Shown here: piece by piece, positions 27,400-44,678 of the stretch
Layout: each line of letters starts with the position of its first letter
How positions within the stretch are numbered: position 1 is the first letter of the stretch
Source of the DNA: Pedobacter lusitanus
GTDB taxonomy: Bacteria > Bacteroidota > Bacteroidia > Sphingobacteriales > Sphingobacteriaceae
Assembly: GCF_040026395.1 (NCBI RefSeq)
Contig: NZ_CP157278.1
Span: forward strand, 1,240,001-1,304,000
Direction of reading: 5' to 3'
DNA length: 64,000 nt
Translations under genes and position numbers: made by a program
Notes under the pieces: generated by a model
Seen by the model: only the letters and a program-made list of their open reading frames with translations
Told to the model about the DNA's origin: nothing
Databases searched by the model: none

Positions 27400-27420
27400 C
27401 TCTTTTCTATAATTTAAATA

Positions 27421-28666: not shown

Positions 28667-29158
28667 ATGCGTTTAAAAAGTTCATTATCACAATTCAATC
28701 CAGACGATCTGGATCTCAAAATCCTTGAAATACTTCAGTCTGACAATTCAACTCCGCAGCGTATAATCGGTGAAGCCGTAAATCTTTCAGCAGCAGCCGT
28801 TCAGCGCCGTATTAAGCGGATGGAAGAAGCCGGTACTATTCAGTTCAACATTGCTGCAGTCAATCCACTCAAGGTTGGCCGTTTAATTACACTGATTGTT
28901 GAAATCAGTATGGAAAGTGAGAAATTACAACAGGTTGACTCCATGAAAAAAAGATTCAGTGAGCAACCAGAGATACAGCAATGTTATTATGTCACCGGAG
29001 GAGCTGATTTTGTCTTAATACTCACCGTAAAAGATATGTCTGATTACGAATCCTTTACAAGGCGGGTCTTTTTCAGCGATCCGAATATTAAAAAATTCAA
29101 AACCTTAGTGACCATAGATCGCGTTAAAGTTGGTCTCTCCGTCCCATTAAATATTTAA
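28667..29158 (+). CDS. Lrp/AsnC-family transcriptional regulator
   Basis: A 163-residue protein: N-terminal helix-turn-helix (LDLKILEILQSDNSTPQRIIGEAVNLSAAAVQRRIKRME) and a C-terminal RAM ligand-binding domain (about 75-155, YYVTGGADFVLILTVKDM). It is divergent from the ammonia-lyase gene and likely controls it in response to an amino acid. Its stop shares the bases TTAA (29155-29158) with the stop of the convergent NRPS gene. Confidence 0.9.
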   Translation: MRLKSSLSQFNPDDLDLKILEILQSDNSTPQRIIGEAVNLSAAAVQRRIKRMEEAGTIQFNIAAVNPLKVGRLITLIVEISMESEKLQQVDSMKKRFSEQPEIQQCYYVTGGADFVLILTVKDMSDYESFTRRVFFSDPNIKKFKTLVTIDRVKVGLSVPLNI

Positions 29159-32100
29159 TCATCTATTTCCTTTAACCAAATACCACAAAATGGCGGTTTA
29201 ACTATCGACAGGTGATCTCCCTTTGCATAGCAAACATCAACTTTATTAAAATACGGACTCCATGAATCAGGATTTAGCCATTTTTTACTCTTCTCGGCAA
29301 TGATCAATTTCAAAGTGTATGGTAATCTGCCATAAGGATAGGCGTATTTTACAGATAAAGCAGCTTTCACAACTTTCCAGCATTTAGCAAAAATCAGTGC
29401 TTCCTGATGAAACCCCTTTTCGGCAATTAACCGTTCAATGCGATTTTCCAATGTTGATTCTGGTTCTTCTCTTAAAATTTCCTGAATCTTTTGAAGAATC
29501 TCCTTTCGTTCGTTTATATCTGCTTCCTGAAACAGTGTGTTACAAAAAAGTATAACCTCGTCTATAGGTAATCCATTAATATCAGTCAATATACCACTAT
29601 CAATCATGACTATTTCTGTAACAGAGATCTCATCTGATTCCAGCTTTTTGAGCATTTCATAAAGAATTGTCCCCCCGTAGCTATGGGCGAAAAATTTTAC
29701 AGGCCCGGCTTTAACAATTTGCTTAACCAGTGCAACATGATGTTCTGCCATCTCTCTGATACCTTGACAGGGTGATTCACCATGATGGCCCGGCATTTCT
29801 AGACCATAGACCGGTCCTGTTCCATACAGACTTTTAGCCAGCCCATAATAGCCGTCACAAAGTCCAGGCAAACCCGGAATAACAAAAATTGGGATGTTAT
29901 CTGAATCTTTAACCGGTTCACGCAGAGAAATCAGATTTCCTGCAGGAATATTCTTCTGCTCACTACAATCCATCCCTTTATCCGGACTATTCCGGGTATC
30001 TTTATGATTGCTTCTCCCTGCACTTTCTATAGTGGCTGATAACTCCCGGATATTCCCTGCCTTTAGAAAAGTACCAAGCGACAAAGCTGCTTTCCAGGTT
30101 TTATTAATTCGCAGCAGCATTCTGATCGCTGCCAGAGAATGTCCTCCCAGGTCAAAAAAGTTATCCAGAACACCTATATTTCCTATAACCAGCTCTTCTT
30201 CCCAGATTTTCACCATAGACCTCTCTGCTGCTGTGCCGGGCGCGACATAATTCTTTCGTACAATAGAGTTTACAGCTAGTTCAGCAAGGGCTTTGCGATC
30301 AGCTTTACCGTTGGGCGTAAGCGGTATATTGTCCAGTTTTGTGAAAGTTGCCGGAACCATATATGCCGGTATCTTTTTTAACAGATGGATACGAAGTTCG
30401 ACCGGATCATATTCCATTTCAGAGAGATAAAAAGCGATCAGTATGTTTTCCCCGGATATATTTTTCGTGGTTACTACCGTTTTCTTTATCCCCGGATATT
30501 CAGCTAATACATTTTCTACTTCACCTGATTCCACTCTGTATCCCCGAATTTTGACCTGATCATCCATACGGCTGATGAATTGTAGATTTCCATCTTCCAG
30601 CCAGCGTCCCTGATCACCTGTACGATAGATTTTACCTTTACCATATGGATTAATAAAGAATTTTTCAGCATTAAGTTCATCTCTGTTAAGATAACCCCTG
30701 GTAAGTCCCGCCCCGGCTATATAAAGCTCTCCTTTTACACCAACAGGCAGGAGTTCTCTGTTTTTACCCAGCACATATACCTGCGTATTTGCGATGGGTT
30801 TACCGATCACGGGTTGTCCGCATTCCCGGATTTCAGCAATGGCTGCATTAACCGTGTATTCTGTAGGTCCATAGGCATTAAATGTTTGTACACCTTCCAA
30901 TGCCTGCAACTTGCTCCACGTCTTGTCAGACATAGCCTCCCCTCCCACTGAAATCAGCCTGATCTGAGCGAACAGAGCCGTCTGCTGTTCATCATCCAGT
31001 GTTTCTATAACAGGATAAAACAAAGGAGGAATATTGAGGATAGTGATATTTTTACTGAGAATCAACTGATAAAAGTTATCAGGATTTATATCGCGTTCAG
31101 CTCTGATTACAACACCGGCACCAGCAATCAGATAAGGAAAAATCTCTTCAACAGACATGTCAAAACTCAAAGCAGCAAACTGAAGAATTCTGTCTGAAGG
31201 AACAATTTTAAACTGTTGCATCAGGTGAATTGAAAGGTTGACCAGCGAATGATGTTCAATCATCACCCCCTTGGGCCTGCCTGTACTTCCGGAAGTATAA
31301 ATAACATAAGCAAGATGAGCTGGAAGTACCATTTTTTTCAGGACTGAACCTGGGGCGGGCGGAGTTTTTAGTATCTGGTTTATCGTCCATAAAACACAGG
31401 TTTCGCCTACTGCCGGTATTAACCTGTTCATCAACTGTTCCTGTGTAAGAAGTATGTTTATTGCTGCATCTCTTAACAGGAAACGGACTCTATCTTCTTC
31501 ATAAAGCGGATCTATAAAAAGATAGGCCCCACCAGCTTTTAATATCCCTAGTATGGCGATGACTGCATCAGACGAGCGTTCCATAGACAACGCAACCAGG
31601 ACATCCGGCTTAACACCATGGTTTTGCAAAAAACGGGCAATATGTGTGCTCTGCTCTTCTAAAGACTGATAAGTCATGGTTTTCCCGGACTCACTGTCAA
31701 TTAAGGCAACCTGATCCGGAAAACGTCGTGCCTGTGCTTCAATCATGTCATGAATACAGAGATCAGGTATAGCTGTATGGTGAAACTTACCGGTCAGCAA
31801 ATGCTTTTCTGCATATTCCAATATATCATAATCTTTAATCTTAGCCTGAGGCATTTTTACAACATCGTCTATCAACTTATTCAGATAACCCAGATGCCGC
31901 TGAATGGTCTTTTCCTGAAACAGACTTTGCTGATACTTGATCTGTATTTCTATTGAACTCCTGAAATCATATACTTCCAGCGTATAATGATCTTCCGTTT
32001 CCTGATAAACCTCAAAAAAAGGCTGAATACCATTTTGAAAGTCTTTGTTTTCCAGGATTTCATCAAATATATTCTGGTAAGTATAAGATACCGGTAAAGG

Positions 32101-35088
32101 AGATTCTATGCTGCTATTTATTTTGATACCTAAGCTGGAAGTGAGTTGAGTAAAAGGATAAAATGCATGACTAAGTCCCTGATTAAAGTTATCACGAACC
32201 TCCTTTAATAAAGCGTCAAAACTTTTTTCTTCCGCAACCTGATTACGGCTAACCATCAGATTAATATAACATCCTATACTTTGTTCGTGGGTCTGCTTTG
32301 GCCTGCCGCCTACCGGGGTACTAACCAGGATATCTTCATCTCCGGTAATTTTATACAACAGTACATTAAATACGGCCAGTATAAGCGTAGAAATATTTAC
32401 CTGTAATTCTCTGGCTGTATCCTTCAGCTTTGCCAGCCGCTCTCCTTTCAGTATGATTTTTTCACAGCCTACACCAGTTACCTCCAATTGGTTTCTGAAG
32501 TCGTAAGGAAGAGAAGAAGGCTGACCTATTCCGGCCAGTTTTTCCTTCCACCAGGCCAGATCTTCTATAGCCTGGTTACTGTTCAGATAGATGCGTTCCC
32601 AGTTTACAAAATCAAAAAAAGCGTAATCAGGCAATTCTGTGAAATGTATATTGCCTTCACAAAGCAGACGATAGTTCTCCCAGAAAACCTGCATAAACAG
32701 GATTCCCGAAAATCCATCAATTATGATATGGTGAATAATAAAATAAAGATAAGTAATACCGGAATTCTCCTCTGTGAGCAGGTACCATTTGATCAATGGC
32801 TCAGATTTCAGTTCAAATGGTTGTCTGAGCAGGGAAAACATGAGCTCCGTAATTACTTGTCCCGGTTTCAAAACTATTTCTACCGGAGCCTTAGCAATCT
32901 GTTCTGCTGATGAAAACTGATGAACCAGTTCATCTGTAGCATGATGCTGAACCAGATTGGCAGTTAAGATGGGATACTTTTGCAATACCAACTTAAAAGC
33001 GAGGGGAAGCAAATCCAGATCTAAAGACTTTTCAATCTTAAATGCTATCGGGACATTGAATCCACCCGAAGCAGGATTACTTTCCTGTATATACCATAAA
33101 CCTTTCTGCACTTCTGAAATAGGATACCCCTGTAATGTCTTATCCAGGAAACTATTCCCTGAGAATGAACTTTCATTTCTCCTGTCCCTGAGTTCATATT
33201 TTTTTCCTACCAGCTCAAAAAAGTCCTGAAAACTCTCCAGTGACAGGGCTTCTCCCAATTTAATAGTTATACCCAGACTTTGATTGATCCTGCGAATCAG
33301 CCGGACTGTTTTGATAGAATCAAAGCCATAATATACCGGGGAGCGCGACCGGTCAATTGTCTCCAGGTTCAAATGAAAAATAGTAAGTATATGCTGACGC
33401 AATATATCTTCGACTACAGCATCAAGAGGTTTATTATATGCACTAACCTGGAGTGGAATATCATCACCGTTAACCGGTAATTCCTGCTTCCGCGTAAAAT
33501 TATCCGGTATATATTGTTCCAGGATAATATGCGCATTGACACCACCTATAGCAAAACTATTCAGGGCAGCTCTTCGTGGAAACTGAGCTGCCTTCCAATC
33601 TGCTGCTGACTGGTCGATAATCAGGGAATGACCATCAGGCAATTCCTGATTCAGAGTTGTTAAACCTGCATTACCAGGAATTATGCCTTGTTCCATTGCC
33701 TGAATAACTTTCAATAGAGAACCTGCGCCAGCCGCAACTTCAGGATGACCTATACTTGGCTTTACACTGCTAACTCTCCATTTTTTGTCTTTCAGTTTTG
33801 AAAAGGAACGGTACACCTGATCAATTGCACCAAGCTCCAGCGCGTCTGCTAATGGATTAGCAATACCATGGGCTTCTACATAATCAATCGTATCTACATG
33901 GATACCAGAATCCTGTATACATTTTTGCATAGCGACCTTCATTCCCTTCACATGTGGTGCTTCTATTGAAAAACCACTGCCTCCATGATGAACTGCAGTT
34001 CCCCTGATCAAAGCCAGTATTTTATTTCCATCTCTTCTTGCAAGTGCCAGTGGTTTAAGGATAAACAGACCGACACCTTCTGTACGGACAAAACCATCTG
34101 CATCCTGACAAAAGCTTTTGGTTTGGTTTTCCGGACTTAACAAGTCATCATATAATCCACTTGCAGCTGCCCTTTTAAAAGTCTTCTCATCAATAAGATT
34201 TATGCCTCCTACTATTGCGTGGGTAATTTCTGCCAGCCTGATACTCTGCACAGCTCTGTGCAGTGCAACATATACACTCGTACAAAAAGTATTTACCTGT
34301 TCGCTTGGTCCCTGAAAGTTCAGGCGAAAAGAAAGTGCATTGGACAATGTTATCTGATAAGGCTTTACAGGAAAATCGTCAGAACGGTCTACAGCGGAAG
34401 CTATAAATATGCCGGTCATCTGAGCAGATAATTCTTTCAGGCTTATCGCATGATCATTCATTGCTCTGGCCAGCACTTTATATAACAACCGCAGCGATCT
34501 TTCCATAGTATAATACTCCAGGGAGCTTATCCCCAGATGATCGAGCAAGGTATCCCATTCAGGATCAGCTATCTCCCCATAAGTGAGTTTGATATCCTTA
34601 TCTTTAGGAGGAAATTCTGCAATTTTACCTGAACAAACCCGTTCCCATAAGGCGTCGCTATCCGTTATGCCTGAGAAAGTACCTTCCATTGCAACAATAG
34701 CAATGGTATGCTGATCTTCCTGAGCAACAATCTCAGTTGCAGAATTTACCGGAGTGTTTACCTGTACCTGATCTCTGATCTCTTCCTTCTGCCCCATTTC
34801 AATTAACAGATAATCAACCAGTACATCCAGAGAGGGGTAATCAAATAAAAGCGTAGTGCGAAAAGAACAGGCTAACAAATCTTCCAGCTTTATCTTGAAT
34901 GCAACAGCTTCAGTAGAACTGGTACCCAGAGCAATAAAATCCTGATCTAAAGCAACGTCCTCCACTGAGTCCAGTTCCAGAAACTCTACCAGTAAATTCC
35001 GGATAATATCAGTTAGTAACTGTCGCCTTCTATCTGCAGATTCGCCTTTGATCAGCTCTGCTACTGATTTTGAATTTTGTGACTTCAT
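29155..35088 (-). CDS. Hybrid synthase ACP-KS-ACP-C-A-PCP-TE of an isonitrile-lipopeptide-type cluster
   Basis: A 1977-residue single-protein assembly line. ACP1 (about 20-105) has phosphopantetheine Ser58. A ketosynthase follows (about 127-530) with Cys269, His407 and His448, a full triad. ACP2 (about 560-630) has Ser591. The condensation domain (about 650-1090) has HHIIIDG at 786-792. The A domain (about 1130-1610) has YTSGSTGRPKG and NAYGPTE; by eye its pocket residues read D-M-E-N-I-V-A-V-N-K, close to a known ornithine code. PCP has LGGHSL near 1680 and the terminal thioesterase has AHSYGG and GDHLSIV. There is no acyltransferase and no reductase. Last gene of the operon, nine bases after the FcoT gene. 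Known isonitrile synthases (ScoC, Rv0101) use a separate ACP and a reductase, so this architecture differs. Confidence 0.9.
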   Translation of the reverse strand: MKSQNSKSVAELIKGESADRRRQLLTDIIRNLLVEFLELDSVEDVALDQDFIALGTSSTEAVAFKIKLEDLLACSFRTTLLFDYPSLDVLVDYLLIEMGQKEEIRDQVQVNTPVNSATEIVAQEDQHTIAIVAMEGTFSGITDSDALWERVCSGKIAEFPPKDKDIKLTYGEIADPEWDTLLDHLGISSLEYYTMERSLRLLYKVLARAMNDHAISLKELSAQMTGIFIASAVDRSDDFPVKPYQITLSNALSFRLNFQGPSEQVNTFCTSVYVALHRAVQSIRLAEITHAIVGGINLIDEKTFKRAAASGLYDDLLSPENQTKSFCQDADGFVRTEGVGLFILKPLALARRDGNKILALIRGTAVHHGGSGFSIEAPHVKGMKVAMQKCIQDSGIHVDTIDYVEAHGIANPLADALELGAIDQVYRSFSKLKDKKWRVSSVKPSIGHPEVAAGAGSLLKVIQAMEQGIIPGNAGLTTLNQELPDGHSLIIDQSAADWKAAQFPRRAALNSFAIGGVNAHIILEQYIPDNFTRKQELPVNGDDIPLQVSAYNKPLDAVVEDILRQHILTIFHLNLETIDRSRSPVYYGFDSIKTVRLIRRINQSLGITIKLGEALSLESFQDFFELVGKKYELRDRRNESSFSGNSFLDKTLQGYPISEVQKGLWYIQESNPASGGFNVPIAFKIEKSLDLDLLPLAFKLVLQKYPILTANLVQHHATDELVHQFSSAEQIAKAPVEIVLKPGQVITELMFSLLRQPFELKSEPLIKWYLLTEENSGITYLYFIIHHIIIDGFSGILFMQVFWENYRLLCEGNIHFTELPDYAFFDFVNWERIYLNSNQAIEDLAWWKEKLAGIGQPSSLPYDFRNQLEVTGVGCEKIILKGERLAKLKDTARELQVNISTLILAVFNVLLYKITGDEDILVSTPVGGRPKQTHEQSIGCYINLMVSRNQVAEEKSFDALLKEVRDNFNQGLSHAFYPFTQLTSSLGIKINSSIESPLPVSYTYQNIFDEILENKDFQNGIQPFFEVYQETEDHYTLEVYDFRSSIEIQIKYQQSLFQEKTIQRHLGYLNKLIDDVVKMPQAKIKDYDILEYAEKHLLTGKFHHTAIPDLCIHDMIEAQARRFPDQVALIDSESGKTMTYQSLEEQSTHIARFLQNHGVKPDVLVALSMERSSDAVIAILGILKAGGAYLFIDPLYEEDRVRFLLRDAAINILLTQEQLMNRLIPAVGETCVLWTINQILKTPPAPGSVLKKMVLPAHLAYVIYTSGSTGRPKGVMIEHHSLVNLSIHLMQQFKIVPSDRILQFAALSFDMSVEEIFPYLIAGAGVVIRAERDINPDNFYQLILSKNITILNIPPLFYPVIETLDDEQQTALFAQIRLISVGGEAMSDKTWSKLQALEGVQTFNAYGPTEYTVNAAIAEIRECGQPVIGKPIANTQVYVLGKNRELLPVGVKGELYIAGAGLTRGYLNRDELNAEKFFINPYGKGKIYRTGDQGRWLEDGNLQFISRMDDQVKIRGYRVESGEVENVLAEYPGIKKTVVTTKNISGENILIAFYLSEMEYDPVELRIHLLKKIPAYMVPATFTKLDNIPLTPNGKADRKALAELAVNSIVRKNYVAPGTAAERSMVKIWEEELVIGNIGVLDNFFDLGGHSLAAIRMLLRINKTWKAALSLGTFLKAGNIRELSATIESAGRSNHKDTRNSPDKGMDCSEQKNIPAGNLISLREPVKDSDNIPIFVIPGLPGLCDGYYGLAKSLYGTGPVYGLEMPGHHGESPCQGIREMAEHHVALVKQIVKAGPVKFFAHSYGGTILYEMLKKLESDEISVTEIVMIDSGILTDINGLPIDEVILFCNTLFQEADINERKEILQKIQEILREEPESTLENRIERLIAEKGFHQEALIFAKCWKVVKAALSVKYAYPYGRLPYTLKLIIAEKSKKWLNPDSWSPYFNKVDVCYAKGDHLSIVKPPFCGIWLKEIDD

Positions 35089-35097
35089 AGGGTTGAA

Positions 35098-35655
35098 TCA
35101 GCTTTTTTCTTTTGCGGGTAATATGCCCAATACGACCTCACCTTTAGAAGATCCTCCATATATATCCTGGAAATTACAATAGGTATAGAGAAATGTACAT
35201 TGCGTAGTTTTCTTAACGGCTGTAATACCCCAGGTACCGGAAAAATCCTTAGCATTGATCAGCTGACTGAAAGAGGAACTGATCTTTACAATCAGTACAT
35301 GACTAAGCTGTTTATGGAAAAAGGTTTCTTCTGTATAATCTGCCAGCTCCGGTATCAGTTGATTCTTAATACAGTGCCCCAGAAATACATAACCAAGCTG
35401 GTTATAGCAAATATTGTATTCTACTGCATTAAAATGGCCCGTATCATCAATATAACAGGATTCTGCTATAGCAAACTGTCCATTTATCTTCAATCCCTGA
35501 ACTTTTTTGCCAGGTTCAACATGAAAAACAGCTTGTTTAAGATAGCTGGCATGATCCCTGTAAGGATTTAAAATGCTATGAATAAAGTCCGGATCTATAA
35601 TTACAGATCCGGACTCCATATTTGATGGATGTCTTTCAGTTTTCATGATTTTCAT
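35098..35655 (-). CDS. FcoT/ScoD-type thioesterase of isonitrile biosynthesis
   Basis: A 185-residue hotdog-type protein that I recognise as a relative of Mycobacterium tuberculosis FcoT (Rv0098, 183 residues). The block TGHFNAVEYNICYNQLGY matches FcoT's TGHFNAVELILCFNQLAY almost residue for residue, and the region before (GQFAIAESCYI) and after (QLSHVLIVKISSSF) also aligns. In the Sco pathway this enzyme promotes glycine addition to an enoyl-ACP and releases the N-carboxymethyl amino acid that the dioxygenase then oxidises. Starts at 35655, 35646 or 35619 are possible; the first two overlap the dioxygenase stop, which implies coupling. Confidence 0.87.
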   Translation of the reverse strand: MKIMKTERHPSNMESGSVIIDPDFIHSILNPYRDHASYLKQAVFHVEPGKKVQGLKINGQFAIAESCYIDDTGHFNAVEYNICYNQLGYVFLGHCIKNQLIPELADYTEETFFHKQLSHVLIVKISSSFSQLINAKDFSGTWGITAVKKTTQCTFLYTYCNFQDIYGGSSKGEVVLGILPAKEKS

Positions 35656-36538
35656 TCTTTATTCCGATATAAAATGGATATGCATCATAAATTCCAATAC
35701 GATAACTTTTGCTTTTTTCTCCGGGAGGCAGCTGAGAAGATTTATGGAGTAAAAAGCGGTTATCCCAAATGATGATATCGCCCTTATCCCAGGAATGCAT
35801 ATGTACATGTTCTTCTCTTTCGGTAAAATCAAATAAAGCCCGCATGGCTTTTTGATTTTCCTCATAGGTCAGACCTTCAATTCCCATAGTGAACCCACTG
35901 CTCATATAGAGAGCTTTTTCTTTGGTAACAGGATGTGTTATCACAGCAGGATGTTTTACCGGCGGAACGATTTCATTCATATAATCTATTAGCTGCTGCA
36001 ATGATTTGTCAACATCCGAAGGCTGAACTTTGTACCGGTTATTTCCTCCATGAATCATAGTCGATCCGTCTACAAGTATTTTAAGTTCATCTGGTAAAGC
36101 ACGGTATACCTTGGCCATATCTATATAATAAGTTGCCCTGACGGATTGAGGGATAACCACCGGAGATATCGAAGTCAGCGATAATGGCTGCTGCTGAAAC
36201 TGGCAGTCTGTATGCCAGTAATGTCCCGTACCGGCAACACCTACTTTTTTACCTTCCTCATTGACATTGGAAGAAACAAAGATCTCCGGAAAGTCAGGGT
36301 GATGATAATTATCCTGAAAATAAACCTGTGGTGTACCCAGTTTCCTGGTAAAATCTACATATTCTGCCGGAGTTAATTCCTGATTGCGGATAACAATTAG
36401 TTTATTCCGATAAATGGCAGCTCTGATTTCCTCCAGTTCAGCAGATTCAGGAGTTAAACTCCGAAGATCAAGACCTGAAATCTCACCTCCTATTTCGCCA
36501 TTTTTAGCATCTCTTATTTCGAATATTTCTGTTTTCAT
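35636..36538 (-). CDS. TauD/TfdA-type Fe(II)/2-oxoglutarate dioxygenase (ScoE-like isonitrile-forming)
   Basis: A 300-residue non-haem iron enzyme. The facial triad is His109 and Asp111 in GHYWHTDC plus a distal His in NRFLLHKSS; the Arg for 2-oxoglutarate follows in KSYRIGIYD. Placed between an acyl-AMP ligase and an FcoT-type gene, it matches ScoE and Rv0097, which convert an N-carboxymethyl-beta-amino fatty acid to the beta-isocyano acid by oxidative decarboxylation. On its own the sequence would only say TauD family; the specific role rests on context. It starts 24 bases after the ligase stop and overlaps the FcoT start. Confidence 0.85.
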   Translation of the reverse strand: MKTEIFEIRDAKNGEIGGEISGLDLRSLTPESAELEEIRAAIYRNKLIVIRNQELTPAEYVDFTRKLGTPQVYFQDNYHHPDFPEIFVSSNVNEEGKKVGVAGTGHYWHTDCQFQQQPLSLTSISPVVIPQSVRATYYIDMAKVYRALPDELKILVDGSTMIHGGNNRYKVQPSDVDKSLQQLIDYMNEIVPPVKHPAVITHPVTKEKALYMSSGFTMGIEGLTYEENQKAMRALFDFTEREEHVHMHSWDKGDIIIWDNRFLLHKSSQLPPGEKSKSYRIGIYDAYPFYIGIKNENHEN

Positions 36539-36562
36539 GATTATTTTTTTTTATTGTAAATA

Positions 36563-38140
36563 TTAATTCACTGCTCGTTTTCTTCCTGTCCAGTAAGGCT
36601 CCCGGAGTACCCGTTTCAGAATTTTCCCACTTGGGTTCCTCGGCAGCTCTTCAATGAAGCTGACAGAATTGGGGCCTTTGAAGTTTGCCAGTCTTGCTCT
36701 TACAAAGCCGATGAGTGCTCTGGATTTCAACACTGCACCAGGTTTTAACACCACGAAAGCTTTTACAGATTCTCCGAGTAAATCGTCCGGAATTCCGATT
36801 ACTGCAGCTTCGGCTACGTCTTCATGTTCGCATAAAACAGCTTCAATCTCGGCTGGAAATATATTCTCACCTGCACAGATGATCATGTCCTTGATACGAT
36901 CACATACATACAGATAACCATCCTGATCCTGGTACCCGCCATCTCCGGTTCTGATCCAGCCGTCAACAAGAGTTCCGTCAGTTTCTTCCTGATTTTTCCA
37001 GTAAGCCAGCATTACTGAAGGTGACTTTATATAAATTTCTCCTACCTCTGTAGCTTTTAACTGTCGTCCGGACGGGTCTATGATTTTAACTTCTACACCC
37101 GGCAAGGGTCTTCCTGCAGCATTCAATCTTTTCACCCCATTCACATGGTGATCTTCCGGACGCAGACAAACTGCCATATTTCCTGTTTCAGTCATCCCAT
37201 AAATCTGGAAGAAATCACACCCAAACTTCCCGGCTGCTTTGCTCATCAGCACATCAGATATAGGTGATCCACCATATAGAATTGCCTTAACTGAGGAAAA
37301 ATCAGTAGTCTGGAAGGCTGGTTCGGAAAGACAAAAACCCAGCATCGCCGGAACTAATTCAATTTTGGTTATCTTATGTTTTTCAATGAGTTGCAAAACC
37401 TTCCATGCAATAAAAACATCGATAAGAACATTGGTACTTCCTGAGATAAATCCCTGAACAGCCCACCACAAGCCGCCTATATGAAACATTGGAAGAGATA
37501 CAAGCAGCACATCCTGATCATTTAAATCCATCCATTTATCCCCTGCGTTGTACATATGGTGCAGTAATCTGAAAAAGGTATAATGAGCCAGCTGTACTCC
37601 TTTCGGTTTACCTGTAGTTCCACTGGTGTAAAGCTGAAGAACAGCATCTTCTTCTCCAGGTGTAAAAGACGGAGGATTAAGGGCAGAAAAACCATCACGC
37701 CAGGACTGGTAATCAGGGTACTTAGATCCATCACCTTCTATTGTTATTATATTCCTGACCAATGGCAACTCTGGAAGTATTTCCTTAATTAAATCAACAA
37801 ATTCCTGCTGCACAAACAAGAGTTCTGCATCTCCATCTTCCAGTATATATTTAAGCTCCCGCGCAGATAACCTCCAGTTCATGCTGATTAATACAGCTCC
37901 GGATTTTGCACAGCCGAATAAGATTTCATACCCATAATCGATGTCTTTACTTAAAATTGCGACTCTGCTTCCGGCTTTCACATTTAAGGAATCCAGACCT
38001 GCAGCAACCTGACTTGAATACTTGTCAAATTCACCATAGGTTGTGCTTCTATCTTCATAGATTAAAGCGGTTTGATTCGTTCTGTTCGCGGCGTTCCATG
38101 CAGAAACTTCCAGAAGATTATTTAAGAATAGATTTCTCAT
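36563..38140 (-). CDS. Acyl-AMP ligase (FadD10/ScoA-like)
   Basis: A 525-residue AMP-binding enzyme. Motifs: LQLYTSGTTGKPKG (ATP loop), QIYGMTETGN, the DGWIRTGDGGY hinge region and the C-terminal Lys in PRNPSGKILKR. It would adenylate a fatty or isocyano-fatty acid and load it on the carrier protein, as FadD10 and ScoA do in isonitrile lipopeptide pathways. Genes follow in tight order: 12 bases after the TonB receptor stop, 24 bases before the dioxygenase. By sequence alone a general acyl-CoA ligase is possible. Confidence 0.87.
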   Translation of the reverse strand: MRNLFLNNLLEVSAWNAANRTNQTALIYEDRSTTYGEFDKYSSQVAAGLDSLNVKAGSRVAILSKDIDYGYEILFGCAKSGAVLISMNWRLSARELKYILEDGDAELLFVQQEFVDLIKEILPELPLVRNIITIEGDGSKYPDYQSWRDGFSALNPPSFTPGEEDAVLQLYTSGTTGKPKGVQLAHYTFFRLLHHMYNAGDKWMDLNDQDVLLVSLPMFHIGGLWWAVQGFISGSTNVLIDVFIAWKVLQLIEKHKITKIELVPAMLGFCLSEPAFQTTDFSSVKAILYGGSPISDVLMSKAAGKFGCDFFQIYGMTETGNMAVCLRPEDHHVNGVKRLNAAGRPLPGVEVKIIDPSGRQLKATEVGEIYIKSPSVMLAYWKNQEETDGTLVDGWIRTGDGGYQDQDGYLYVCDRIKDMIICAGENIFPAEIEAVLCEHEDVAEAAVIGIPDDLLGESVKAFVVLKPGAVLKSRALIGFVRARLANFKGPNSVSFIEELPRNPSGKILKRVLREPYWTGRKRAVN

Positions 38141-38152
38141 AACTGATCTGGT

Positions 38153-40513
38153 TTAAAATTTCAGGATTAAAGTTGTTCCGTAAGTTCTTGGGGTTCCAAG
38201 AATAAAAGTGCTGAAAGAGCCATAGGCTACATACCTTTTATCCGTAATGTTGCGCGCCCAGAAATTGAGTTCAAAATTCTTACCCGTTACACCGGTTTTA
38301 GCATTAAATAAACTATAACCAGGCTGATTTAAACCATTGACAAAATCAAAGTAATACTTATCCAGGCAACGATACTCTCCTCTGAGAAATGCTGTTAATC
38401 TTTGTTTGCTTCGACCAAAATCGTAATTATACTGTGCTGCCAGCATCGAACTGAATGGCGGATTATAAATTGGCTGATTACCCTTATTATCCACAACTGC
38501 TTTCGCCTCTTTGCTATACAGGAATAAAGAAGCATACCTGGCATGAGAATAACTGGCGTTCAAATCGATCTGCAAACCTTTTAAAGGCAAGGCCGACAGT
38601 TCAAGTTCTATCCCTTTATTATGCATTTCTCCTACGTTTAAAATGAGCTGATTAACCCCATCCTGCGAAGTCCCTACCTGCTGATTATGTTGCTCCAGAT
38701 AGAAGGCCGTCAGATTGAGTTTCAACTTATTATTCAGGAAAGTATTTTTCCATCCGATCTCATAATTATCTGAATGTTCCGGATCATAGGCCACCTGATC
38801 TGGCGTTGGGGCTGTCGTATTTAATCCACCAGCGCGAAAACCTCTTGCATAAGAAGCATAAATCAGCATTTGATCTTTAGGTTTATAACTTAGGGTCAGC
38901 TTTGGTGTTACGGCATTGAAACTGGCCCGGTAATCTCTGTTTGGCGTTAGTAATATTGGTGGATCAGGGTCTTTCTGATAGTCCGTATACTTTCCTAACC
39001 TCCTCACTTCATGATCGTACCGGATACCTGCTGTCAGATCCCATTGGCTTTCCACAGCATAGGTAGCCTGTCCAAAAAAAGCAAAACCTTTATTCTTTGC
39101 AGCACTATAAGCAATAGTATTAAATGGTGCACCAGATTTAGGGTCTAACAGTAAATAATCGGGGCCATAACTTGATAAAGAGGCATTACTGTTATTTTGC
39201 AGGAATCCATATGCTCCGGCAACCCATTGTAGTTTACTGCGATTGGAAGAAGGAGAAGAAAAACGGATCTCCTGGGTGTAAATATGCTGGCGGATATCCG
39301 GACTTCCGCTTAAAATATTTAAAGGACTAAAATCAAAGTCATAGCCCCCGGGGTAATCCAGGTGATAATTAATGTAAGAGGAAACAGAAGTGAAATTGAA
39401 GTCTTTACCATAGTAATTCGCCTGTAAGGAAGTGTTAAAGTTATTCCTCCGTTCCATATTAGCATTATTTGAAGATACTTCATATGGCTTTTCAAAAACC
39501 TGGGTAATTGATTTAACCCATGGATAACTACCTCTGTCATTATCCTTTTCCATCTTCACATTTAAAGACAGTGCCCAGCGTGCTGAGGGCAGATAGCGTA
39601 AATTAAAATTGCCTGAATAATCTTCCCGCCTGTCATACCCGCTCTTTGTATAGGTATTATAATAAATTGACCCTCTGTGATTATAGGTCAAAGCTCCGCT
39701 GGCAAAAAGTTTATTTTTCACCACAGGTCCGGAAAGACTAACAGTGTAACGTTGTTGTCCATAATTCCCTAAACTAACTTCAGCATAACCTGAAGCTATA
39801 TTACCAGGTTGTCTGGTGGTAATATTGACCACCCCACCAAATGCATTACGGCCATAAAGTGTCCCCTGTGGCCCACGCAAAATCTCTATGCTTTGTATAT
39901 CATTAAACACTGGTGGTGCCGAAAAAAACTCATATTGATATACACCGTCAACATAAGTAGCTACCGCCTGCTCATTGGTATAGCCTAATACTCCACGTAT
40001 ATTTATAAAATTGGCTGCAGTACTATTACCATGTTCAACAGTGAACAGACCTGGAGCTATCGATGTAAGATTTGTAATATCCCATAAACGGTAATCCTTA
40101 ATCTGTTTTGCATCCAGGGATGTAATTGCGGCAGGGATACGCTGAATACTTTCCTGCCTCTTTTCGGATGACACCGTTACTTCATTCAATTGCTGATTAC
40201 TTTCTGCCAGTTTAAAATCCAGGATCAGCGCCTGCCCCGTACCAACGGTTATCTTTTTAAGTTTCGATGCATAGCCAATGGCCGAAATACTTATGGTATA
40301 ATTTCCACCTTCTAAATTACTGATGCTGTATTTCCCGTCTGCATCAGTCAGTACACCATAATTTGTATTTAACAGCTTAACTGTTGCTTTAAAGATAGCC
40401 TGTCCCCGGGATGTAGTAATTGTACCTTGTATATTGCCGGATTGAGCAAATACAGGTGTACAATGAAGTGTAAATAATATAATTGTAAGTCTTAAAATTG
40501 TTCTCATGTTCAT
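38153..40513 (-). CDS. TonB-dependent receptor of the isonitrile cluster, likely metallophore receptor
   Basis: A 786-residue outer-membrane receptor. Signal peptide ending PVFAQSG, carboxypeptidase-D-like domain (GNIQGTITTSRGQAIFKATV), plug (IQSIEILRGPQGTLYGRNAFGGVVNITTRQPG) and a siderophore-type barrel ending in TLILKF. It is not SusC-like: it is shorter and no SusD follows. Cotranscription with the biosynthetic genes (12 bases to the ligase) suggests it takes up the metal-loaded product. A structured 174-base gap lies just upstream. Confidence 0.9.
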   Translation of the reverse strand: MNMRTILRLTIILFTLHCTPVFAQSGNIQGTITTSRGQAIFKATVKLLNTNYGVLTDADGKYSISNLEGGNYTISISAIGYASKLKKITVGTGQALILDFKLAESNQQLNEVTVSSEKRQESIQRIPAAITSLDAKQIKDYRLWDITNLTSIAPGLFTVEHGNSTAANFINIRGVLGYTNEQAVATYVDGVYQYEFFSAPPVFNDIQSIEILRGPQGTLYGRNAFGGVVNITTRQPGNIASGYAEVSLGNYGQQRYTVSLSGPVVKNKLFASGALTYNHRGSIYYNTYTKSGYDRREDYSGNFNLRYLPSARWALSLNVKMEKDNDRGSYPWVKSITQVFEKPYEVSSNNANMERRNNFNTSLQANYYGKDFNFTSVSSYINYHLDYPGGYDFDFSPLNILSGSPDIRQHIYTQEIRFSSPSSNRSKLQWVAGAYGFLQNNSNASLSSYGPDYLLLDPKSGAPFNTIAYSAAKNKGFAFFGQATYAVESQWDLTAGIRYDHEVRRLGKYTDYQKDPDPPILLTPNRDYRASFNAVTPKLTLSYKPKDQMLIYASYARGFRAGGLNTTAPTPDQVAYDPEHSDNYEIGWKNTFLNNKLKLNLTAFYLEQHNQQVGTSQDGVNQLILNVGEMHNKGIELELSALPLKGLQIDLNASYSHARYASLFLYSKEAKAVVDNKGNQPIYNPPFSSMLAAQYNYDFGRSKQRLTAFLRGEYRCLDKYYFDFVNGLNQPGYSLFNAKTGVTGKNFELNFWARNITDKRYVAYGSFSTFILGTPRTYGTTLILKF

Positions 40514-40687
40514 TTTCTGGTTATCTGGCTAAAAGCCAATCTTGTAATCTCAAAGGGATATCTTCCTGAAGCATATAGCTGCCAGACATCTATTTTAATA
40601 GCACAGCTATTACCCTGCTTAAAAAAACAGCAGCAAGGCACAATCAAAAAATGATGTTGTCAGCAGGATCAGGAAGATATTTGAAAA
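40514..40687 (-). ncRNA. Candidate structured leader RNA before the TonB receptor gene
   Basis: The gap holds a perfect 12-base inverted repeat, ATATCTTCCTGA (40558-40569) with 40669-40680, that would close a 123-base domain. Inside are a perfect seven-base hairpin (40596-40602 with 40606-40612) and CTGCT/AGCAG arms (40615-40619, 40629-40633) around an A run. Outside, TGGCT/AGCCA (40526-40538) forms another hairpin close to the start codon. This looks like a multi-branch RNA in the minus-strand transcript. I found no known riboswitch signature; it could also be a processing or attenuation element. Confidence 0.5.
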
Positions 40688-41077
40688 TCAGGCGAATAAC
40701 CGGGGTGGCCTGAAAATGTTCCGGATATAAGGATTGGTGTATAGATAAGCGTAAACAGAAAATGAGGGATCGCTAATACTTAAGGCAGAGGGATCAAGGA
40801 AAGAAAAGGTAAAAGGCTCCTGGCAAAAAGAAACTTCCAGCTGACTCAGGTTATTCCTTGCGGCCTCTTTCTTTTCATTTTCCTCTGCCTGTTTGATTTT
40901 TTTCATCAGGTAGCATTTCCCATTACAATGCAGCTCAGGTCTGTTCCGGTTAATACAAAGATTACTGGCAATATATTCCTTATTGAATTCAAATCCCGCA
41001 AAAATGAAAAACCGCGAACAGTTCGCCATCAGCGTAATCAGCATATAAAAAAATAAAACTGCCTTCCGGAACATCAT
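40688..41077 (-). CDS. Small membrane-associated protein with CNGKC motif
   Basis: A 129-residue protein: one N-terminal hydrophobic segment (KAVLFFYMLITLMA), then a Cys-rich central phrase LHCNGKCYLMKKIKQAEE, and a conserved tail ending YIRNIFRPPRLFA. The C-N-G-K-C pair plus an earlier Cys (NLCINRNRP) could bind a metal; that is inference. Small proteins like this occur beside TonB receptors in Bacteroidota, with no function that I know of. It begins six bases after the DJ-1/YHS gene stop, so it is in the same transcript. A paralogue lies at 42366-42753. Confidence 0.7.
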   Translation of the reverse strand: MMFRKAVLFFYMLITLMANCSRFFIFAGFEFNKEYIASNLCINRNRPELHCNGKCYLMKKIKQAEENEKKEAARNNLSQLEVSFCQEPFTFSFLDPSALSISDPSFSVYAYLYTNPYIRNIFRPPRLFA

Positions 41078-41083
41078 ATTGCC

Positions 41084-42046
41084 TTATTTTTTTGAAGTAT
41101 ATAGTGCTGCGTTTTTATTGAATAAGTTCCTGCAGGTGGCTGAACAAAAGTGATAGTCCTTCCCCTTGTATTGAAGATGATATTTTGAACTCCCTTTGGG
41201 AACTGTCATCCCGCAAACAACATCTTTCTCCTCCTCATTTATGGTCTTCGGCAACGGGCTTTTCATCTCTGATACAGCAGTCGTATTTTCATGATGCATC
41301 ATATTCATGTCCATCCCTTTATCGTTCTCCATAGCACCCATAACTTTCCCGTCTGCAGGATTCCATTTATCGTATTCCATAACAGCGGTCACGAAAAGCG
41401 CTTCTTTCAGTCCCTTTAATTTTTCTACAATATGCAAAGCACCGTCAATACCTGCTGATACACCGGCTGTAGTCAGAATCTTTCCGTCTTCAACAAATCG
41501 CACATTGCTGATAAATTTGGCTTTAGGTGTCAGCTTTTGTAAAGTATCTATAGCGCCAAAATGGGTAGTTACTGTTTTTCCATCCAGCAGTCCGGCTCTG
41601 GATAATAAACCAGCACCAGTACAAACTGACATAGTTAGCTTAGTTTGAGCACTTATTTTATTGATCCAGCTGATCACCTGATGATCTGAAGCAACACCTC
41701 CAACAGTATTCATCGGTGCACCGGGAATAACCAGAACATCTGGTTGGGGTGCATTGGAAATTGTAAAATCAGGATTTATACTCAACGTATTACCTTCGGT
41801 ATTGATTTGAGCTGAGCCAGTGGAGACTGTATAAACCTGGAAATATTTACTATCGCTAAAGACTTCTGCAGGTCCTGCAAAATCCAGAAGTTCTACACCA
41901 GGGTAGATTAGTACAGCAACTTTAATCTTTCCCTTTTGCATAACTGGCTGAGTAGTCCGGCTTTTTTCATTTTGCCGGCAGCCCATGGCAAAGATCCCCC
42001 CTAATAATAAAAGAAGACCGAAAGTTTTGATTTTTAAATTAATCAT
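41084..42046 (-). CDS. Lipoprotein with isonitrile-hydratase-like DJ-1/PfpI domain and YHS domain
   Basis: A 320-residue lipoprotein (lipid Cys23 in GGIFAMGC). Residues about 40-225 form a DJ-1/PfpI domain with the nucleophile elbow SVCTG at Cys142 and the blocks LLDFAGPAEVF, TVTTHFGAID and TTAGVSAGIDGALH, which parallel those of Pseudomonas isonitrile hydratase InhA. A linker leads to a YHS domain at about 273-320 (VVCGMTV, YHFCSATC), a metal-binding module seen in copper and other metal proteins. The expected reaction is hydration of an isonitrile to a formamide, outside the cytoplasm. DJ-1 domains have many activities, so the isonitrile role rests on subfamily resemblance plus the cluster. 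First gene of the unit with the CNGKC gene. Confidence 0.85.
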   Translation of the reverse strand: MINLKIKTFGLLLLLGGIFAMGCRQNEKSRTTQPVMQKGKIKVAVLIYPGVELLDFAGPAEVFSDSKYFQVYTVSTGSAQINTEGNTLSINPDFTISNAPQPDVLVIPGAPMNTVGGVASDHQVISWINKISAQTKLTMSVCTGAGLLSRAGLLDGKTVTTHFGAIDTLQKLTPKAKFISNVRFVEDGKILTTAGVSAGIDGALHIVEKLKGLKEALFVTAVMEYDKWNPADGKVMGAMENDKGMDMNMMHHENTTAVSEMKSPLPKTINEEEKDVVCGMTVPKGSSKYHLQYKGKDYHFCSATCRNLFNKNAALYTSKK

Positions 42047-42365: not shown

Positions 42366-42753
42366 TTAAGCCGCGATCTTAGGCGGTCTGAAGATCTGGT
42401 CGCAATAATTACTGGTATAATTATAGCTGTAGCGGGAATATCCTGACAGGTCTTCAATTATAAATACAGTAGTATTTAATGAGGGTACAGCATGATGCTG
42501 ATAGAATGATATGGATAACTGGTTAAGGACATTTTTAACAGCCTTATTATTTTCGTCTTTTTCTGCTTCTCTGACTTTTCTCATCAGATAACATTTACCG
42601 TTACAATTCATCCATGGCTTGTCCCGGTTCATACATAACTTAGAAGTGATATAATCCTGATTTAATTTAAAGCCTGCATAAACAAATAATCCTGAGAAAT
42701 CACTTGTAAATACAGCCAGAAAAAAAAAGCCAGATGATATACTTTTTGTACAT
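42366..42753 (-). pseudogene. Second CNGKC small protein, frameshifted in an A9 run
   Basis: The frame encodes VYAGFKLNQDYITSKLC, then MNCNGKCYLMRKVREAEK, and ends QIFRPPKIAA, a clear paralogue of the 129-residue protein at 40688-41077. From the first in-frame ATG only 88 residues are made. A good start, ATG at 42753 (MYKKYIIW), lies in another frame. The two frames join if the nine A at 42720-42728 were eight, giving a 128-residue protein with a normal N-terminal helix. This may be a real mutation, a sequencing error in the homopolymer, or slippage-dependent expression. Confidence 0.7.
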
Positions 42754-42820: not shown

Positions 42821-43273
42821 TTACAGGATAATATTTCTTTTAAACGCACAGCCAAGTTCCATAATAGAATCTGTTTTGGCAATGCCCTGAATATTATCAA
42901 TTTTCTCATAGAGTACCTTTCTCATATGCTCATGGTTTTTAGCAATGATTTTAAGGTACAGCGTATAAGTACCGGAAATATAATAACACTCGGTAACCTC
43001 CGGAATTTTCTTTAATTCTTCAATAATACGGTTGGAGTCCTGATCTTTTTCAAGCGTGATTCCGGTAAAAGCTCCCCAGTCATAACCAATCTTTTTTTCA
43101 TCCAGAACAGGCTTGATCCCTGCCAGTATACCTTGCTCAGTTAACCTGGATATGCGCTGATGCACCATCGTATTAGATACACCCAATGCAGTAGCAATAG
43201 CTGAATAGGCCATTCGCCCATCTATTTCCAGTTGTTTTAATATCTGGATATCAAATTCATCAATATGGTCCAT
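42821..43273 (-). CDS. Lrp/AsnC-family regulator, likely of arginine/ornithine catabolism
   Basis: About 150 residues from MDHIDEFDIQILKQLEIDGR, the usual Lrp opening, with helix-turn-helix ATALGVSNTMVHQRISRL and a RAM domain (ITECYYISGTYTLYLKI-type region near 85-100). The frame is open to an earlier ATG at 43336, which would add 21 atypical residues. It is divergent from rocD and arginase genes, an arrangement typical of Lrp regulators that sense the substrate amino acid. A perfect inverted repeat lies in the shared promoter. Confidence 0.9.
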   Translation of the reverse strand: MDHIDEFDIQILKQLEIDGRMAYSAIATALGVSNTMVHQRISRLTEQGILAGIKPVLDEKKIGYDWGAFTGITLEKDQDSNRIIEELKKIPEVTECYYISGTYTLYLKIIAKNHEHMRKVLYEKIDNIQGIAKTDSIMELGCAFKRNIIL

Positions 43274-43337
43274 TCCTTTAAATAAGATTAGTTTTTTAAA
43301 CTGGCTCATCAGAGCTAAATACACTTTCAAAATCAAT

Positions 43338-44672: not shown

Positions 44673-44678
44673 GACTTT

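Follow-up and report, generated by a model that had tools for sequence, protein, structure and literature searches.

A Pedobacter locus related to actinobacterial isonitrile lipopeptide clusters combines candidate biosynthesis, receptor and DJ-1/YHS lipoprotein genes

The closest described systems are the actinobacterial ScoA-E cluster, the SF2768/Sfa cluster and the mycobacterial nrp cluster (Rv0097-Rv0101), which resemble the locus analyzed here in having adjacent genes for an acyl ligase, a FcoT/ScoD-type protein, a ScoE-type oxygenase and an NRPS. ScoA-type NRPSs typically end in a thioester reductase. For mycobacteria, Mehdiratta in 2022 reportedly described an isonitrile hydratase that releases metal; this would set a precedent for the release step considered below. 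The open-licence literature that we searched yielded no Bacteroidota example of an isonitrile make-import-release gene set. In a 64-kb stretch of Pedobacter lusitanus DNA (the window), a single minus-strand run at 29155-42046 holds biosynthesis, receptor and lipoprotein genes together. We read this run, with a probability of roughly 0.6, as a Gram-negative system that makes, imports and releases an isonitrile metallophore, most likely for Cu(I), and whose uptake half is also kept by non-producers.

All of the genes listed in the initial annotation of this DNA were found in the ORF list where it had placed them, and its adjacent set of acyl ligase, ScoE-type oxygenase, FcoT/ScoD-type protein and NRPS was borne out by Pfam and sequence matches (Table 1). 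That annotation is extended here by the KS domain and two carrier domains with which the synthetase begins, by the YHS domain at the C-terminus of the DJ-1 protein and by the small CNGKCYL protein. In the uptake half, 6 nt separate the DJ-1 lipoprotein gene from the small-protein gene and 174 nt separate the latter from the TonB receptor gene; 12 nt then lead to the acyl ligase gene and 24 nt from there to the dioxygenase gene, which overlaps the FcoT gene by 20 nt, and the NRPS gene follows after 9 nt. A promoter and terminator scan returned 45 promoter-like sites (46.4 expected) and 15 terminator-like sites (12.7 expected) and, being so close to expectation, was uninformative.

Table 1. Features of the locus, with positions in the window
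Feature	Position	Strand	Basis or remark
DJ-1/PfpI protein with C-terminal YHS domain, predicted lipoprotein, isocyanide-hydratase-like	41084..42046	-	D55/C142 align with ICH D17/C101
Small protein with hydrophobic N-terminus and motif CINRNRPELHCNGKCYLMKK	40688..41077	-	without Pfam or NCBIfam match
TonB-dependent receptor with CarboxypepD_reg domain	38153..40513	-	Pfam
Acyl-AMP ligase, ScoC/FadD-type position	36563..38140	-	Pfam
ScoE-like Fe(II)/alpha-ketoglutarate oxygenase, sister-branch type	35636..36538	-	sequence searches, alignment, tree
FcoT/ScoD-like (2E)-enoyl-ACP glycine-adding enzyme	35098..35655	-	Pfam, NCBIfam, sequence matches
Hybrid synthetase ACP-KS-ACP-C-A-T-TE	29155..35088	-	Pfam, motifs
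Ketosynthase domain of the synthetase, residues 128-536, Cys-His-His motifs	33481..34707	-	Pfam, motifs
Second small protein, with CNGKCYLMRK, encoded upstream of the DJ-1 gene	42366..42632	-	ORF list

The biosynthetic proteins resemble their actinobacterial counterparts. The acyl ligase (AMP-binding, 284 bits) is 53-56% identical to those of the Aquimarina, Microscilla and Cytophagaceae loci described below. The FcoT-like protein scored 157 bits with Pfam PF10862 (cut-off 27) and matched 5wsx (E=5e-27) and Rv0098 (E=7e-18) with the TGHFNAVE block aligned, in agreement with its initial assignment; its sole NCBIfam match was the ScoD glycyltransferase model, at 127 bits against a cut-off of 250. 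When contigs of at least 2.5 kb were paired by size, 55 of the 87 FcoT entries on them had a ScoE partner; this is a rough proxy, taken from the top 120 of 656 matches and the top 120 of 728. Database matches extended to methanotroph, planctomycete and cyanobacterial sequences. The dioxygenase (TauD, 147 bits) matched ScoE (E=4e-66), as anticipated, and SfaA (6l86; E=6e-68), and its H-x-D triad, already described as intact, was confirmed by alignment as H109, D111 and H265.

The synthetase is a hybrid. Pfam detected Condensation, AMP-binding, three PP-binding and Thioesterase domains, the complete domain order being obtained by adding motifs, and no AT domain was found in the protein; the code positions of its A domain read DMENIVAVN. 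No free acyl carrier protein (ScoB) was present in the run among ORFs of at least 80 aa, and the intergenic gaps are too short to leave room for such a gene; carrier domains are instead fused to the synthetase. The C-terminus is a TE in the window and in Microscilla, the thioester reductase test being negative for the window protein, whereas the synthetases of A. muelleri and of a second genome of its genus set (G604) end in a reductase domain (Pfam NAD_binding_4), and those of A. longa and one A. aquimarini locus have a reductase ending by motif.

The order ligase-dioxygenase-FcoT-synthetase was also found in Pedobacter sp. PAMC26386, Aquimarina longa, A. aquimarini, A. muelleri, G604, a Microscilla sp. 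and a Cytophagaceae MAG, and this recurrence across Pedobacter, Aquimarina, Microscilla and Cytophagaceae indicates that it is not due to chance. A. aquimarini contributes two such loci, of which the second encodes a synthetase of another, PKS-like type. Hydratase-like DJ-1 and TonB genes adjoin two other Bacteroidota clusters; a TonB receptor gene lies downstream of the cluster in A. muelleri and G604 and upstream of it in the Cytophagaceae MAG, the receptors beside other Bacteroidota clusters being only 28-32% identical to that of the window. The fetched stretches around the Microscilla, A. longa and A. aquimarini clusters contained no TonB or DJ-1 match. Outside the Bacteroidota, two Streptomyces plasmid clusters include genes for a heavy-metal P-type ATPase, a PCu(A)C copper chaperone and a DJ-1 protein in the same run, and a Halotia plasmid cluster carries a TonB receptor gene. 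The original proposal of a make-import-release gene set is thus strengthened, since uptake and DJ-1 genes recur in clusters of other lineages.

The release step would fall to the lipoprotein, which matched DJ-1_PfpI (79 bits) and YHS (45 bits). Its description as isonitrile-hydratase-like is supported by the isocyanide hydratase fold and by equivalents of Asp17 and Cys101 (D55 and C142), but the same Asp and Cys occur in 3mgk, a protein without known function that is equally close by sequence (82.0 bits, against 81.6 bits for isonitrile hydratase). Moreover, DJ-1/YHS proteins are widespread in Bacteroidota, and the window protein shares only about 33% identity with the DJ-1 proteins of the receptor cassettes described below. 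Because it belongs to this common type, the case for a hydratase role is weaker than for the cluster DJ-1 proteins of A. muelleri (isonitrile hydratase 3.7e-33, 3mgk 4.7e-21) and Streptomyces clavifer (1.5e-46 and 1.3e-19), for both of which an unnamed ThiJ/PfpI protein, 3ewn, came second (8.4e-31 and 1.1e-39, respectively). The window DJ-1/YHS protein might therefore be a paralogue with another function, the biosynthesis proceeding as proposed; the low identity to the cassette type, the abundance of DJ-1/YHS proteins and the failure of sequence to separate isonitrile hydratase from 3mgk favor this alternative, which is compatible with the biosynthetic part of our reading and which we consider unlikely.

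Uptake and DJ-1 genes also occur together apart from biosynthesis. Receptors 64-75% identical to that of the window (TonB barrel, 159 bits) were found in relatives lacking FcoT, and nine FcoT-lacking Bacteroidota genomes carry a receptor plus DJ-1 cassette, the receptor being truncated in two. In the five cassettes whose receptor is full-length, it is preceded by a homologue of the small protein. Of the nine cassettes, two adjoin genes for SCO1, MbnP and an MbnH-like di-haem protein, whereas five have no SCO1, MbnP, MbnH-like or PepSY_TM match beside them; SCO1, MbnP, MbnH and PepSY_TM queries found no match in the window, and no copper-homeostasis gene was recognized in its cluster. In two genomes, G589 and G591 (the latter a MAG of 2.8 Mb), the only DJ-1 match (E<=1e-8) lies at the cluster, for which the chance is about 0.6% and 1.0% assuming uniform placement; the corresponding 1.4% for the window is not independent, because the query was taken from it.

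Several loci were not counted as cassettes. Receptors of about 40% identity are common in the family, and 14 loci with such receptors (L108-L121, of 46 matching genomes) included none with a cassette-type DJ-1 gene, L109 and L112 having a distant DJ-1 relative (27-28% identity) about 3 kb away. The G584 locus (L151) has a small protein and two DJ-1 genes, but its TonB receptor is only 22-25% identical. A search of plasmids with the cassette DJ-1 query matched 287 records, of which two were examined: the Arenibacter algicola DJ-1 gene (47.5%) has no receptor gene within 9 kb downstream, and that of Streptomyces coelicoflavus adjoins an amidohydrolase gene, not an isonitrile cluster.

These cassettes bear on whether the isonitrile could be an antibiotic or signal, with the DJ-1 protein protecting its maker and the receptor a chance neighbor or serving other uptake. 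Isonitriles are antimicrobial and isocyanide hydratases are thought to be defensive, according to excerpts of PMC10792529, these genomes are rich in TonB receptors, and those near the other clusters are divergent. The joint occurrence of receptor and DJ-1 genes in the nine genomes without FcoT, twice beside SCO1/MbnP/MbnH-like genes, and the copper chaperone and ATPase genes in the two Streptomyces clusters argue against this possibility and make it rather improbable. We give little credence to a metallophore whose metal is zinc, or that serves several metals, instead of copper: the mycobacterial product is presented as a zinc metallophore, kupyaphore, in excerpts of PMC9374683 and PMC10961391, a FUR-family gene lies near the A. 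muelleri cluster and near one cassette (G520), and another cassette (G080) is surrounded by ArsR, SBF-family and RND efflux genes, which are not known copper-uptake genes, but copper is favored by excerpts of PMC9600254 and PMC12140626 and by the SCO1, MbnP/MbnH-like and PCu(A)C neighbors.

A reading as a copper metallophore system further requires that the oxygenase form an isonitrile. Among 123 sequences, all keep Y96, Y101, D134, R157, K193, D198 and H295 (ScoE numbering), and 122 keep H132 and R310; the window counterparts of the CABA contacts Y96, K193 and R310, and of Y101, are Y73, K170, R280 and Y78 (roles of iron- and CABA-site residues from PMC7949033). By contrast, H299 of the alpha-ketoglutarate site is absent from all 123 sequences (Q269 in the window), R195 is replaced in 122 (Q172), and either H299Q or R195Q abolished product formation by the S. 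coeruleorubidus enzyme (PMC7949033). In a tree, 30 ScoE-like sequences separated with support 100 from four other TauD-family proteins, which lack Y96, Y101, R157 and K193; these outgroups came from plasmid records, proteins from the window's own genome being too distant from ScoE for rooting, and support values were taken from the unrooted tree. Thus, the placement of the dioxygenase with ScoE held at the level of the joint group, but within it the window protein belongs to a 24-tip branch beside the ScoE/SfaA side (support 63). The initial annotation had named a dioxygenase placed outside the ScoE clade as evidence against its interpretation, and this outcome is partly seen. The NCBIfam equivalog NF049937 was the best-scoring model for the protein, yet at 275 bits against a cut-off of 400.

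The sister-branch enzyme might hydroxylate only once, or decarboxylate the glycyl adduct, giving a product without isonitrile, as the two replacements would suggest, each being inactivating in ScoE. However, the conserved substrate and iron sites speak against such chemistry, as do Halotia_L142, a sequence with Y at 299 that falls with ScoE in the tree, and the DJ-1 proteins close to isonitrile hydratase that adjoin clusters of the same branch. In addition, 120 of the 123 sequences have Lys or Arg at position 307, which could anchor alpha-ketoglutarate. We hold this alternative to be quite improbable. The initial claim that the chemistry equals that of the actinobacterial set stands as regards homology, substrate-site residues and gene order and has to be qualified for H299, R195 and the different NRPS; judging from these sequence features, the same beta-isocyano-acyl chemistry is likely.

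If the run is indeed a make-import-release system, the acyl ligase would charge the synthetase's N-terminal carrier domain, which takes the place of the free ACP used elsewhere, with a fatty acid, the FcoT/ScoD-like protein would add glycine to the 2-enoyl-ACP, and the ScoE-like oxygenase would convert the glycyl adduct to a beta-isocyano acyl group. The KS domain may perform one chain extension, with malonyl supplied in trans, or merely transfer the chain to the second carrier domain; the amino acid to which the C-A-T module would then couple it is probably Orn or Lys, with the TE releasing the product. The metal complex, most likely of Cu(I), would return through the adjacent TonB receptor, and in the envelope the DJ-1/YHS lipoprotein may convert the isonitrile to a formamide by hydration and so free the metal, which YHS cysteines or other copper proteins could take over. 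Relatives without synthesis genes would use the receptor plus DJ-1 cassette to take up the isonitrile chalkophores of others. More tentatively, and less likely than not, the Bacteroidota may maintain a complete isonitrile-chalkophore economy. Its producers would assemble a diisonitrile-type ligand on an ACP-KS-ACP-NRPS line, with divergent oxygenases in which a fixed Lys/Arg at 307 replaces the mobile His as anchor of alpha-ketoglutarate; a TonB receptor would carry the copper complex to the periplasm, where a lipoprotein hydratase with a metal-type YHS domain would break down the ligand and so liberate copper. Non-producers with receptor and hydratase alone, some of them beside SCO1 or MbnP/MbnH, would steal the metallophore.

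If this reading is true, the glycine-derived isonitrile route would extend from actinobacteria to Bacteroidota and, by database matches, also reach methanotrophs, planctomycetes and cyanobacteria. Since methane oxidation depends on copper, the methanotroph-named matches matter here. Gram-negative bacteria would have isonitrile-based copper uptake in which copper is freed from a tight ligand by covalent hydration in the periplasm, a testable step, and cheaters with only uptake and release genes are predicted. Natural sequences lacking ScoE H299 also open the alpha-ketoglutarate site in isonitrile synthases to direct tests.

Compared with the actinobacterial isonitrile lipopeptide clusters, the window shares the substrate-site residues of the oxygenase but has a fused ACP-KS-ACP in place of the free ACP, a TE in place of the reductase, and an oxygenase of a sister branch without H299 and R195; its run adds genes for an outer-membrane receptor and a predicted exported DJ-1/YHS protein. 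InhA/ICH, of the DJ-1 superfamily, is about 32% identical to the latter, which differs in being a predicted lipoprotein that carries a YHS domain at its C-terminus; the isonitrile hydratase chains in the PDB have 231 residues. Methanobactin operons (MbnT, MbnP/MbnH; excerpts of PMC3621798) likewise pair a chalkophore with a TonB receptor, and two of the nine cassettes lie beside MbnP/MbnH-like genes, but the ligand here would be an isonitrile made by an NRPS, whereas methanobactin is a modified ribosomal peptide. The CrtA-type TonB copper transporters are similar in that a receptor is proposed for a copper complex, possibly a xenometallophore; according to excerpts of PMC12914433, neither a high-affinity ligand nor biosynthesis genes in common were found for CrtA, whereas the window receptor gene has a biosynthetic cluster attached.

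The proposed isonitrile metallophore cluster is real and conserved. The source contig is a single sequence of 6.05 Mb (the window is G000:C1:1240001-1304000). At the closest named relative of the locus, in Pedobacter sp. PAMC26386, the cluster genes have 75-91% amino acid identity and their order is as in the window.

Genes of the cluster, in order of transcription
Gene	Window position	Strand	Order
DJ-1/YHS lipoprotein	41084-42046	-	first
Small Cys protein	40688-41077	-	second
TonB receptor	38153-40513	-	third
Acyl-AMP ligase	36563-38140	-	fourth
ScoE-like oxygenase	35636-36538	-	fifth
FcoT/ScoD-like protein	35098-35655	-	sixth
Synthetase	29155-35088	-	seventh

The window oxygenase matched the actinobacterial enzymes SfaA at 6e-68 and ScoE at 4e-66, confirming the ScoE likeness proposed in the initial annotation, while (3R)-3-[(carboxymethyl)amino]fatty acid oxygenase/decarboxylase entries matched at about 4e-49 and taurine dioxygenases far more weakly, at 2e-25. 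Its top NCBIfam model was ScoE, at 275 bits, below the cut-off of 400. We aligned 123 sequences (the window oxygenase, the top 120 of 728 relatives from the database and two cyanobacterial loci; ScoE and SfaA not counted). Among these, ScoE residues Y96, Y101, D134, R157, K193, D198 and H295 are kept in all 123, and H132 and R310 in 122. At Y97 the sequences carry F (115) or L (8), and at R195 they carry Q (97), T (23), K (2) or R (1). None has H299. ScoE has V at position 307, where K stands in 110 of the sequences and R in 10. Passages of PMC7949033 report that, in ScoE, Y97F reduces activity but keeps it, R195Q gives no product, and H299Q entirely abolishes both product and succinate. Because the same passages equate ScoE R310 with TauD R270, position 307 adjoins the alpha-ketoglutarate-binding TauD position 266; the residue at 307 could anchor alpha-ketoglutarate in window-type oxygenases.

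An IQ-TREE phylogeny of 34 sequences separated 30 ScoE-like ones from four TauD-family outgroups with support 100. Within the joint ScoE-like group, the window protein sits in a separate branch of 24 tips (support 63). Next to it is the ScoE side, six tips at support 99: ScoE, SfaA, the proteins of two Streptomyces plasmids, one from Halotia and a divergent second copy from G604, a genome of the Aquimarina muelleri genus set. The window protein and seven relatives, Pedobacter, Aquimarina and Cytophagaceae proteins among them, cluster at support 100. H299 is not universal on the ScoE side either, since position 299 is Y in Halotia and E in the G604 second copy. This copy belongs to a second, divergent ScoE-FcoT pair (40% and 41%; L129 8910-10452) with no adjacent NRPS and, by eye, a Rieske-like protein within 1 kb after it.

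A Pfam search of the synthetase gave the layout ACP-KS-ACP-C-A-T-TE (three PP-binding, ketosynthase N and C, Condensation, AMP-binding and Thioesterase) and no AT domain; the KS has its Cys-His-His residues, ACP1 and ACP2 their serines, the C domain HHxxxDG and the TE its serine motif. Its ACP-KS-ACP part and partner acyl ligase resemble Pks13/FadD32 minus the AT; the NCBIfam Pks13 model scored 272 bits, with a cut-off of 2100. Under the mapping that we assume, the window's A-domain specificity code is DMENIVAVN; the corresponding positions are DMENIFAVN in G604, DMENLLAVN in a Cytophagaceae MAG, DTEDVVTVV in Streptomyces clavifer and DFWNVFMVH in three Aquimarina synthetases. Glu at position 239 of an A domain is read as favouring Orn/Lys. 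Ornithine would be a candidate substrate, with arginase as its would-be source. A class III (ornithine-aminotransferase-like) aminotransferase gene and an arginase gene, divergent from an AsnC-type regulator, lie just upstream of the cluster (43413-45638 and 42821-43336 for this neighbourhood), and all three neighbours are kept in PAMC26386. Beyond the synthetase, at 26914-28557, are genes for a peptide deformylase-type protein and a PALP-family enzyme, neither of which had a match in the ~3.5 kb past the PAMC26386 synthetase; a deformylase beside a putative formamide-producing enzyme could be there by chance.

Isonitrile synthesis genes are rare in Bacteroidota. The FcoT family model PF10862 matched in 1 of 395 phylum genomes, and among 201 family genomes the ScoE protein had a match at E<=1e-60 in 1; each time this was the window's own genome only. 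In the A. muelleri genus set, PF10862 matched 4 of 52 genomes. FcoT-family and ScoE-branch matches were found, under the sources' names, in Bacteroidota, Marinibactrum, planctomycetes (Roseimaritima, Rhodopirellula, Roseiconus, Aquisphaera), cyanobacterial MAGs and methanotroph-named entries (FcoT: Methylococcales, Methylobacter, Methylocucumis; ScoE: Methylococcales, Methylomonas, Methylomicrobium). Both lists contain methanotroph-named entries. The patchy distribution suggests horizontal spread or repeated loss.

In A. muelleri (L006/L131), the order is ligase-ScoE-FcoT-synthetase, the synthetase ending in a reductase. A DJ-1 gene encoding a signal-like N-terminus starts 22 nt later (to the first ATG), followed by a small-protein-like stretch, a lipoprotein-like gene and a TonB receptor, with a FUR-family gene farther downstream and an AraC-type gene upstream of the cluster. 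G604 (L130) has ligase-ScoE-FcoT-synthetase-small Cys protein-TonB receptor on one strand throughout, and the Cytophagaceae MAG (L008) has TonB receptor-DJ-1-ligase-ScoE-FcoT-synthetase-second NRPS. No receptor or DJ-1 matched in the stretches fetched at the A. longa, A. aquimarini and Microscilla loci (L004 starts at a contig end). A second isonitrile-type locus in A. aquimarini (L005/L140) encodes a larger, PKS-like synthetase and has a KS motif of the canonical form. The best three of 24 plasmid matches were from S. clavifer, Streptomyces sp. NBC_01201 and Halotia branconii; the other 21 are TauD-family proteins at 30-33%, four of which served as tree outgroups. Both Streptomyces plasmids encode a P-type ATPase, PCu(A)C copper chaperone, DJ-1, beta-hydroxylase-type protein, MFS, KAS III and ACP, then ScoE-type, FcoT, ligase, ACP, NRPS, substrate-binding protein and ABC permease. 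The Halotia plasmid has MFS, TonB receptor, ligase, MFS, ScoE-type, FcoT, ACP and NRPS.

Receptor and DJ-1 also occur as cassettes apart from synthesis genes. A TonB receptor at E<=1e-100 was present in 46 of 202 family genomes; besides the window's own, receptors of at least 65% over nearly full length occurred in only four (G520, G099, G555, G460). In G080 and G572 the receptor is reduced to its C-terminal part (67%), and G779, found via the DJ-1 search, has a receptor at 66%. Cassette-type DJ-1 follows the receptor in all seven, and the small Cys protein precedes it in all five with a full-length receptor. DJ-1 of this type was found in 4 of 395 phylum genomes (G080, G099, G126, G340), G126 and G340 adding two cassettes with adjoining TonB receptors at 36% and 32%. 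A TonB receptor was in reach at 11 of the 13 examined loci with this DJ-1 type, the exceptions being A. longa (L134) and an Arenibacter plasmid (L161, downstream side seen). PF10862, which does match the window genome, matched in none of nine genomes (G779, G555, G460, G099, G520, G080, G572, G584, G551), nor in G126 and G340, the phylum set holding both having matched only in the window's genome. The truncated receptors of G080 and G572 (L057, L107) are 257-residue parts in open frame beside metal-efflux-type genes; the G080 cassette lies amid ArsR, SBF-family and RND efflux genes, and the G572 surroundings look alike by eye. Their state suggests decaying cassettes.

Within the stretches fetched, copper-related neighbours of the G779 cassette are two SCO1/SenC, MbnH-like di-haem and MbnP proteins (NCBIfam MbnH and MbnP below cut-offs, Pfam MbnP above); those of G126 are SCO1, MbnP and a di-haem protein, that of G340 a di-haem MauG-type protein, and those of G520 a second TonB receptor, PepSY_TM and FUR. 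SCO1, MbnP, MbnH and PepSY_TM queries found no match in the stretches fetched beside the other five of the nine cassettes. In G551, a relative of the window DJ-1/YHS protein (53%) lies amid two SCO1 genes and PepSY_TM. Other exported-looking Bacteroidota DJ-1 proteins (L043, L044, L045, L048, L049) carry an N-terminal CPPC/CGPC...CPHC-type Cys domain, so fusion of DJ-1 to a metal-type Cys domain has occurred at least twice. On a Streptomyces coelicoflavus plasmid (L162 6425-8663), a hydratase-like DJ-1 adjoins an amidohydrolase; the two may together break isonitriles down to amines. For the mycobacterial system, a zinc counter-view is reportedly due to Mehdiratta, as cited in passages of later papers. 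Passages of mycobacterial work favour copper (PMC9600254, PMC12140626).

The initial annotation knew of no described Bacteroidota example, and none was found in the literature searched (isonitrile + Bacteroidota: 0). No Bacteroidota case was apparent in titles and abstract beginnings on isonitrile lipopeptides, ScoE, diisonitrile, chalkophore/TonB, isonitrile hydratase or kupyaphore, and the available portion of a 2026 peptide metallophore survey (PMC12971057) contains neither "isonitrile" nor "Bacteroid-".

The best reading of the cluster is that of a Gram-negative isonitrile metallophore system that carries its own uptake gene and, probably, a release gene. Like the ScoA-E systems, it appears to work by the same route. 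Unlike them, it is without two ScoE-essential residues, a free ACP and a reductase, and it misses two curated cut-offs; for these reasons, it should not be treated as an ordinary ScoA-E member.
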